DNA from: Candidatus Pullilachnospira stercoravium
GTDB lineage: Bacteria; Bacillota; Clostridia; Lachnospirales; Lachnospiraceae
Direction: 5' to 3'
Assembly: GCA_018713585.1 (NCBI GenBank)
Contig: DVON01000293.1
Span: 1-36,168, forward strand
Length of the DNA stretch: 36,168 nucleotides
Of the stretch, positions 155 through 29,518 are shown in pieces. The first letter of the stretch is position 1. Each line of letters opens with the position of its first letter. A program made the position numbers and the translations under genes. The notes under the pieces are model-generated. The model saw only the letters and a list, made by a program, of their open reading frames with translations. It searched no databases and was not told where the DNA came from.

Positions 155-243
155 CGGAGAAGGAGGGATTTGAACCCTCGCGCCGCTATTAACGACCTAC
201 TCCCTTTCCAGGGGAGCCCCTTCAACCACTTGGGTACTTCTCC
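155..243 (-). tRNA. tRNA-Ser(GGA)
   Basis: Acceptor GGAGAAG/CTTCTCC, T-loop GGTTCAAATCC, long variable arm, anticodon stem-loop CTCCC-CTGGAAA-GGGAG (anticodon GGA). Confidence 0.93.
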
Positions 244-274: not shown

Positions 275-359
275 CGGAGAGGGTGGGATTCGAACCCACG
301 CGCCCTGCGGACAAACGGTTTTCAAGACCGCCTCGTTATGACCACTTCGATACCTCTCC
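275..359 (-). tRNA. tRNA-Ser(TGA)
   Basis: Acceptor GGAGAGG/CCTCTCC, GGTTCGAATCC T-loop, anticodon stem-loop GCGGT-CTTGAAA-ACCGT (anticodon TGA). Confidence 0.93.
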
Positions 360-3430: not shown

Positions 3431-3895
3431 CTACTGGGAATGGTTTGCAGTACTGGAAGCAGCCTCCCATTTCATGACAATACCGTCCTCCCGGGGGGCC
3501 TCATAATAATTTTTCCTGACGCCCACTTCCTCAAATCCCAGTTTCCGGTACAGATGAATGGCGCCGGCATTTCCCGCCCGCACCTCCAGAAAGAGAGTGC
3601 CAACCCCTGCGCCCTCAAGACGCGCAAGCAGCTCCGCCAGCATCCGGCCGCCGATTCCTTCCTTCTGCCGGCTGCGCTTCACCGCCACGTTGGTGATATC
3701 ACCTTCGCCGGAAGCCGTCACCACGCCGCAGTATCCCAGAATCTCTTCCGCTTCCTCGGCCACCAGAAACAGCGTATCCTCCCGGATCAGGAAACTGAAA
3801 AATCCCGTCTCTGTCCAGGGAACTGAAAAATTTTCTTCCTCAATCCGCATCACCTGTTCCAGATCATCGATCTGCATTTCTCTAATGGTCACCAT
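3431..3895 (-). CDS. rimI: Ribosomal-protein-alanine N-acetyltransferase (GNAT)
   Basis: VTIREMQIDDLEQVMRIEEENFSVPW...NVAVKRSRQKEGIGGRML...LEVRAGNAGAIHLYRKLGFEEVGVRKNYY. Start placed at 3895, inside the 3' end of tsaB. Confidence 0.93.
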   Translation of the reverse strand: MVTIREMQIDDLEQVMRIEEENFSVPWTETGFFSFLIREDTLFLVAEEAEEILGYCGVVTASGEGDITNVAVKRSRQKEGIGGRMLAELLARLEGAGVGTLFLEVRAGNAGAIHLYRKLGFEEVGVRKNYYEAPREDGIVMKWEAASSTANHSQ

Positions 3896-4604
3896 GATTC
3901 TTTTTCGCTTCCCTTTCTGCCCGTTCCCGCTCCGCCTGGGACATCCGCAGGTATTCCGGACGGTGCTCCGCCGCCGTTTCCACCTGTCCGCGGGCATAAT
4001 AAACAGCCCCCAGCGCCGCCACGGCCCCGGCCCTCTGCCGGTTCAGGTGAAGAGGCGCGAAGGAAAACGGAACCTTGGTCAGCTGCTCCAGCTGTTCCCG
4101 GTATACCGCCACCCCGTCGCCCAGGTAAATCACTTCCCGGCCCAGGCTGTTGATCTGTTCCACAATTGCCTCCACTCCCACAGCCATCTGGGGCGCCACG
4201 GTCGCCATCTTATGATCCCGAAATTCATACAGGCCGGTATACACCTGATTTCTCCTGGCATCCATCAGCGGGCAGATCAGTCCCGGCACATCGTACAGAT
4301 TATACGCCAGGGCGTCCACGGTGGGAACCGCCACCAGCGGCTTGTTCAGGGCCAGTCCCAGCCCCTTGGCCGTGGCCGATCCGATGCGCAGGCCCGTAAA
4401 AGATCCCGGCCCTGCCGCCACCGCGATAGCGTCAATGGTATCCAGATCCAGCTCCGTCATGCCGGCAATGGCGTCCAGCATGGGAAGCAGGGTCTGCGAG
4501 TGTGTCTTCTTATAATTTACGGTATACTCCGCCAGCAGGGTGTCATCCTCAACGATGGCCGCCGATGCCACCAGCCCGGAGCTGTCCAGTCCCAGCAATT
4601 TCAT
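3882..4604 (-). CDS. tsaB: t6A biosynthesis protein TsaB
   Basis: MKLLGLDSSGLVASAAIV, AAGPGSFTGLRIGSATAKGL, PLMDARRNQVY. Confidence 0.94.
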   Translation of the reverse strand: MKLLGLDSSGLVASAAIVEDDTLLAEYTVNYKKTHSQTLLPMLDAIAGMTELDLDTIDAIAVAAGPGSFTGLRIGSATAKGLGLALNKPLVAVPTVDALAYNLYDVPGLICPLMDARRNQVYTGLYEFRDHKMATVAPQMAVGVEAIVEQINSLGREVIYLGDGVAVYREQLEQLTKVPFSFAPLHLNRQRAGAVAALGAVYYARGQVETAAEHRPEYLRMSQAERERAEREAKKNHGDH

Positions 4605-4619
4605 AATTTCCTCCTATTC

Positions 4620-4654
4620 TGGCCGAATGGCCATAGAGGTACCCTCCTGAGGGT
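4620..4654 (-). repeat. Double-hairpin intercistronic element, copy 1 (upstream of tsaB)
   Basis: Minus strand ACCCT-CAGG-AGGGT-ACCTCTA-TGGCC-ATTC-GGCCA. It ends 15 nt before the tsaB ATG. Confidence 0.85.
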
Positions 4655-4666
4655 TTCCTCTCTTTC

Positions 4667-4703
4667 CGGCCGAATGGCCATAAAGGTATCCTCCTCAAAG
4701 GAT
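4667..4703 (-). repeat. Double-hairpin intercistronic element, copy 2 (tandem with copy 1)
   Basis: Minus strand ATCCT-TTGAGG-AGGAT-ACCTTTA-TGGCC-ATTC-GGCCG. It overlaps the tsaE stop codon. Confidence 0.85.
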
Positions 4704-5267: not shown

Positions 5268-5554
5268 ATTTACTGAAAGTCCGCCGGACAATGCTGTGTT
5301 TTTCCTGACATCCTGGCTTCCCGGCAGACAGCGACTCTGCTCATTATAGCACAGGGGTTCCCCTGCGGCAAGCTTCCTCTTGCGCCTTTCTCTTCCACAT
5401 ATTATAATATCTACAGTTCACTGACAGCGGCAGCACATTTTCTGCTTCCCAAAAATGGCACCGCTTTGTGAACGGCAGGTTACTGTCCGCGGCAGTTCAA
5501 CCTCCGGCAGAACTGCTGCCAATACCTTCATATTTAAAAAGGAGAGATGACAAC

Positions 5555-21156: not shown

Positions 21157-21192
21157 TGGCCCGATGGCCATAAAGGGATCCCTCCTGGGGAT
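21157..21192 (-). repeat. Double-hairpin intercistronic element, copy 3 (upstream of ABC ATPase)
   Basis: Minus strand ATCCC-CAGGA-GGGAT-CCCTTTA-TGGCC-ATCG-GGCCA, 25 nt before the ATG. Confidence 0.85.
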
Positions 21193-23434: not shown

Positions 23435-23470
23435 TGGCCGAATGGCCATAGAGGTATCCCCGTAGGGGGC
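23435..23470 (-). repeat. Double-hairpin intercistronic element, copy 4 (upstream of Gfo/Idh gene)
   Basis: Minus strand GCCCCCTACGGGGATACCTCTATGGCCATTCGGCCA, 23 nt before the ATG. Confidence 0.85.
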
Positions 23471-25872: not shown

Positions 25873-25907
25873 TGGCCGTATGGCCATAAAGGTATCCCCG
25901 CAGGGGC
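25873..25907 (-). repeat. Double-hairpin intercistronic element, copy 5
   Basis: Minus strand GCCCCTGCGGGGATACCTTTATGGCCATACGGCCA, 25 nt before the ATG at 25847. Confidence 0.85.
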
Positions 25908-29482: not shown

Positions 29483-29518
29483 TGGCCGAATGGCCATAAA
29501 GGTATCCCCGCAGGGGAT
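29483..29518 (-). repeat. Double-hairpin intercistronic element, copy 6 (upstream of Nudix gene)
   Basis: Minus strand ATCCCC-TGC-GGGGAT-ACCTTTA-TGGCC-ATTC-GGCCA. It abuts the MATE stop codon and lies 32 nt before the Nudix ATG. Confidence 0.88.

Follow-up and report, generated by a model that had tools for sequence, protein, structure and literature searches.

A double-hairpin repeat with an SD in its tail, placed in one orientation before start codons in a Lachnospiraceae genus, is probably a mobile element

The window (the whole stretch of DNA analysed, 36,168 nt) is contig C17 of a Lachnospiraceae draft genome of 2.98 Mb in 293 contigs (G000), which belongs to the same genus as Candidatus Pullilachnospira intestinigallinarum. 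Six copies of a double-hairpin repeat are present in it, all on the minus strand and at the positions given for them in an earlier note on this DNA, and the distances of 15–32 nt between start-proximal copies and start codons described there were obtained again (Table 1). Two copies form a tandem pair before tsaB, in which the tail GAAAGAGAGGAAA connects the first unit to the second, and the other four are single units. In the sister genome (G001), the tsaB pair is also present and the four single ones are absent or remnant.

Table 1. Coordinates of the repeat units and associated features in the window.
Feature	Position	Strand	Details
tRNA gene	155..243	-	Rfam match
tRNA gene	275..359	-	Rfam match
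Downstream gene, TsaB-type protein	3882..4604	-	Pfam TsaD family
Purine tail of tsaB start-proximal unit	4605..4619	-	SD GAATAGGAGGAAATT; abuts tsaB start codon
Start-proximal unit before tsaB	4620..4654	-	Hairpin 1 ACCCT/AGGGT, linker ACCTCTA, hairpin 2 TGGCC-ATTC-GGCCA; start codon 15 nt after hairpin 2
First unit of tsaB tandem pair	4667..4703	-	Hairpin 1 overlaps the end of the upstream gene
Single unit	21157..21192	-	25 nt before ABC-transporter ATPase gene (start 21131)
Single unit	23435..23470	-	23 nt before GFO/IDH/MocA oxidoreductase gene (start 23411); sister species has just a hairpin-2 remnant
Single unit	25873..25907	-	25 nt before gene for 142-aa protein (start 25847), for which no Pfam match was found
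Single unit	29483..29518	-	32 nt before NUDIX-domain gene (start 29450); site empty in sister species

A covariance model built from the six window copies gave about 159 matches in its own genome, 91 in the sister genome and, at that setting, none in 39 other relatives (E-values from these short-calibrated models are rough), and the matches were not random in orientation or position. By sequence scan of the stretches around covariance-model matches in the whole genome, 156 distinct copies in 112 clusters were counted, so that the six copies first listed, although real, were a large underestimate. Clusters were single (72), double (36) or triple (4); 40 of the 112 are thus tandem. The unit is ~42–48 nt long and consists of hairpin 1 (AUCCCC-loop-GGGGAU and variants), an ACCUNUA linker, hairpin 2 (UGGCC-AUNC-GGCCA) and a purine tail of one of two types (GAAAGAGAGGAAA or AATAATGAAAGGAG), and the SD sits within this tail (GAAANAGAGGAAA or ...AATGAAAGGAG). 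In tandem arrays the units repeat directly, one per 43–48 nt with junctions at GGAAA, and the SD of the gene is carried by the tail of the last unit in the array. Linkers are similar among the units of one locus, which points to local duplication. In the two-hairpin architecture described at the outset, hairpin 1 is not universal, its 5' arm missing in many single or first-of-array copies, and the SD tail had been left out.

No Rfam 15 family matched the units in the window at the gathering threshold, and at relaxed settings (E up to 3–5) the units in the window and in related loci were likewise unmatched. The earlier note, too, had named no riboswitch or leader of this form. The two tRNA genes are the sole Rfam matches in the window. 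No description of such a Lachnospiraceae repeat was found in the open-access literature. The family is uncatalogued, and its members keep a fixed orientation and distance to the start codon.

For analysis of position, gene calls and start codons were taken from a purpose-written simple gene finder. In at least 92 of the 112 clusters, hairpin 2 is followed, in sense and after 10–45 nt, by a start codon with its SD, and the distances peak at 14–15 and 22–27 nt; by chance, about 7.6% of intergenic strand-positions fall 13–45 nt before a start in sense. The constant orientation and start distance first noticed in six copies hold genome-wide. Clusters between co-directional genes numbered 79 of 112 and often touched the upstream stop codon. 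In ~0.76 Mb, mostly sister genome plus window, 51 clusters were sense-before-start and about six were real exceptions, one of them truly antisense, counted after backwards-read palindromes and one coding look-alike had been removed from the listing; most antisense 'copies' in that scan were the palindrome read backwards and were rejected. Preference for GGAAA alone would place an expected 16% of intergenic insertions in the sense pre-start slot, and preference for GAAAGG 47%; about 90% was observed. Slot occupancy exceeds both expectations and so calls for additional targeting or for selection on position, by way of a target with greater SD specificity or of the loss of copies that lie elsewhere. 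The start codons had been called unrelated, and no functional theme was found among 20 downstream genes examined. Downstream genes include those for TsaB, NUDIX, ABC ATPase, oxidoreductases, MetRS, GatB and GatC, and further a translational GTPase, a cytidine/adenosine-type deaminase, a histidine-biosynthesis enzyme, MatE, a response regulator and others.

Distribution over Lachnospiraceae genera is patchy. An exact-core scan of the species collection matched Candidatus Pullilachnospira intestinigallinarum many times and gave one copy each, with the same pre-start layout, in Petralouisia muris and a further Lachnospiraceae MAG. The Petralouisia muris copy (NZ_SRYA01000016.1; L045 116–153, minus strand) has the complete layout, and the start of the gene behind it resembles an old-yellow-enzyme-type oxidoreductase, as read from the translation; horizontal transfer of the element or of the gene is possible. 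In the family-wide scan, the first model matched at least 16 of 397 genomes, and a second, multi-genus model matched diverged versions in at least 28 of 397 (at least 25 of 334 genera), both counts being lower bounds because 16 candidates were scored per genome in the large family scans. An order-wide sample (n = 295) yielded matches in the own genome and in a single member of the same family, and in no other. Genomes G389 and G068 are copy-rich, with 38 and 46 matches (E up to 0.01; the weakest are uncertain); their versions retain AUACCUNUAU and have an altered hairpin 2 (UGCC-AUUC-GGCA; UGGCC-UUAAAGGCA-GGCCA). Hairpin 1 reads GCCC/GGGC or ACCC/GGGU in these two and AUACCC/GGGUAU in G055. 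These versions, too, have a purine tail, an SD and a start codon close behind, and are often tandem; across genera ACCUNUA and hairpin 2 are kept, and loops and tails vary.

Mobility was analysed by comparison of G000 with G001, the only same-genus genome in the sample; both are incomplete drafts. Both flanks were orthologous at 45 sites, and copies were present in both genomes at 29 of these, with a different unit number at 10 of the 29. The remaining 16 sites have no intact copy; on inspection, about 10 of them were judged cleanly empty, three to hold remnants and three to be artefacts. Empty sites retain the SD of the gene, for example at the junction ACAACTG-TGAAAGGAG, where G000 has a 47-nt insert. 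In genome G192, two strong model matches were rejected as ordinary elements, as both lie inside a tyrosine-recombinase-like integrase gene (L222 and L231, near locus position 1516, minus strand). There, a clean in-frame insert of 42 nt, one unit long and directly 5' of AAGGAAA, adds 14 codons (AEALKDTSMPFGNS): the protein reads DVYGDN-AEALKDTSMPFGNS-KEIIADC, and relatives have DVYGDN(K/R)(G/E)IIADC. The insert is absent from the four relatives covering the site (L249–L251 and L254). This case shows insertion of a unit where no start codon is near, oriented to a GGAA tract in the way seen at SDs. Both G192 loci have identical sequence over 286 bases upstream and 119 bases downstream of the compared site, which implies that the integrase host gene itself is repeated. 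From filled and empty orthologous sites, the change in unit number and the in-frame insertion, the repeat is judged to be mobile. The earlier note had considered a randomly inserted REP/MITE unlikely; these sites nevertheless show the behaviour of an interspersed repeat that moves.

Searches of G000, G001 and G192 gave no Y1_Tnp transposase, and no transposase was identified. Carriers G055, G068 and G370 possess Y1_Tnp genes; a RAYT/Y1 transposase as mover was rejected, being absent from the two copy-richest genomes. Flanking direct repeats at some loci were significant at first and were no longer so once flanks that might be unit remnants had been excluded, after which no consistent target-site duplication was seen. 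The unit has no obvious terminal inverted repeat. The missing transposase, the failure to see a consistent target-site duplication and the excess of pre-start positions over the GGAAA and GAAAGG expectations weigh against a mobile repeat.

With moderate confidence, we favour a small interspersed repeat (MITE/REP/BOX-like), mobile but non-autonomous, whose copies all insert the same way round at SD-like tracts. These target tracts would be rich in purines and contain GGAA, as SDs do; as the unit ends in GGAAA and would land directly 5' of the SD, the gene would keep a well-placed SD and stay translatable, so that copies before starts could survive, and the regenerated GGAAA would permit tandem growth. 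The copies are presumably transcribed within leaders and intercistronic regions. The insertion chemistry and the exact target rule are inferred; the hairpins may serve mobilisation, with survival at SDs through tolerance. It is plausible that translation or the stability of the mRNA is affected secondarily.

For the six window copies, hairpin 1 had been described as showing compensatory change. Within the genus, swapping of hairpin-1 arms gave almost as high a complementarity as the real combinations (z 0.2 for single, 2.1 for first and 1.6 for internal copies), and pair counts on a mixed alignment revealed no excess of hairpin-1 covariation; alignment A4 is a chosen sample, not a random one. 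Given these results and the missing 5' arms, the covariation in the window is mostly C-runs facing G-runs, which pair by composition, and covariation of hairpin 1 within the genus was not supported. Between genera, the claim fared better: in 23 copies from other genera, the pair beside the CCC/GGG core is C-G in 12, A-U in 6, G-C in 3, U-G in 1 and a mismatch in 1 (raw copies, kinship ignored), and the evidence for true compensatory pairs is good. Selection on a DNA hairpin would explain this covariation just as well. In hairpin 2, which is otherwise almost invariant, variation is seen at the free loop base and at the A/G closing the loop. Changes of A20 to G, which leave a U-G wobble in the sense RNA, outnumber those of T7 to C by 93 to 10, a count that may be inflated by shared ancestry of one tail class and by reverse-strand readings. 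Across 25 orthologous pairs, differences amount to about 2% at the hairpin-2 stem and fixed loop bases, 16% at third codon positions and 44% at the free loop base. This strong constraint on hairpin 2 would reflect either function in place or ability to spread; fitting function in place too, it was counted against the mobile-repeat reading. The fast-changing free loop base suggests that units are exchanged. In the two-unit array L004 and its G001 ortholog in L165, the CCTTCATGG unit and the CCTTTATGG unit stand in swapped order between the species, as if units had been exchanged.

A dedicated cis-regulatory RNA, whose hairpin 1, ACCUNUA and hairpin 2 beside the SD would be recognised by a trans-acting factor (protein or small RNA) that controls more than 100 genes through translation or stability, spread copies being kept for function, would account for position and orientation beyond the target-motif expectation, for the conservation of linker and hairpin 2 across genera, for the compensatory pairs, for the constraint at orthologous sites and for tolerance of sense-side wobbles. 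It is nevertheless rather doubtful, because the downstream genes share no function, hairpin 1 is missing in many first copies, copies are gained and lost between sister species, DNA-hairpin selection explains the covariation as well, and the hairpins do not affect predicted SD accessibility. In folding predictions, this accessibility was 0.61, vs 0.50 in other genes of the same loci, and after shuffling of the upstream part it was unchanged (natural 0.583 vs 0.582, p = 0.90), which makes the purine tail, not the hairpins, responsible; exposure of the SD by the hairpins was therefore rejected. Of the compensatory change taken in the earlier note as a sign of selection on RNA structure, the part between genera holds. 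Regulation through RNA structure is possible, and so is a shared role in translational control. Unlikely, in our estimate, is a combination of spread and function, a mobile RNA control cassette: sense insertion at SDs would put one recognition site (hairpins plus ACCUNUA) on more than 100 unrelated mRNAs, a trans-acting factor would read them as a post-transcriptional regulon, and tandem number would be the tuning knob.

Three further devices were considered. A hairpin that processes or stabilises mRNA between the genes of an operon would suit the many clusters between co-directional genes; it is very unlikely, as the short stems are only partly formed in the folding model (predicted pairing 0.60 for hairpin 2 and 0.45 for hairpin 1). 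An SD-sequestering switch or thermosensor, with linker CCUUU or CCUCU pairing with SD AAAGG or AGAGG and enclosing hairpin 2, is scarcely credible: although linker–SD complementarity is visible in many copies of the own genus, mean predicted linker–SD pairing is just 0.17, the SDs are more open than those of control genes, and other genera have a CCUGU linker with three complementary bases only. Hardly to be expected, too, is a leader-peptide device, that is, an upstream ORF from the AUG of UAUGGCC with the G-run of hairpin 1 as SD-like sequence. This AUG is conserved across genera, 8–9 nt after a G-rich stretch, but its frame relative to the main start varies (38, 27 and 27 of 92), stops are inconsistently placed, and two G389 copies have a stop as early as the third codon. 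The regulatory reading is the more exciting one, and the mobile-repeat account is the most economical.

Rickettsia palindromic elements are small palindromic repeats able to insert in frame into protein genes; their units are longer and frequently lie within ORFs. The in-frame G192 copy is like them, and location in an ORF is a rare exception in the repeat described here. The filled and empty sites are MITE-like. BOX, REP/BIME and the TAACTGA repeats are the closest kinds, and none matches in both build and position. With BOX, which offers the best comparison, the repeat has in common about a hundred short modular copies, partly tandem (boxB), RNA-foldable and patchy over related species (PMC3049150). 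BOX elements lie in transcribed intergenic regions and effects on nearby genes have been reported, and the pneumococcal repeats BOX, RUP and SPRITE are enriched downstream of genes (PMC3049150); the present repeat is almost always sense and directly before the SD, and, by description, sequences and lengths of the BOX modules and their host differ. REP/BIME are also short palindromic extragenic repeats with more than 100 copies, often clustered, some at fixed short gene distances within 15 nt of stop codons (PMC2817692, PMC12306157). They differ in alternating orientation instead of direct tandem order, in lying on the stop-codon instead of the start-codon side and, for REP/RAYT, in the Y1_Tnp transposase, which the two copy-richest genomes lack. 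In Beggiatoaceae, the TAACTGA direct repeats (169 sets with a patchy spread among distant taxa, and proposed as binding sites for a post-transcriptional regulator) are likewise tandem and just upstream of start codons of unrelated genes (PMC4679880); they are heptamers without hairpins in a setting where SDs are rare, unlike the double hairpin with SD tail.

The family lives almost solely in the short pre-start space, in one orientation and with the SD at its end, which suggests a way for a repeat to spread in operons while translation goes on. With 0–4 tandem units before orthologous genes in sister species, it offers a natural series for translation-rewiring tests. A rare copy in reverse orientation between two genes (L016 ~1499, minus strand; L169 ~5348–5392) is kept in both species, with one unit in G000 and two in G001.
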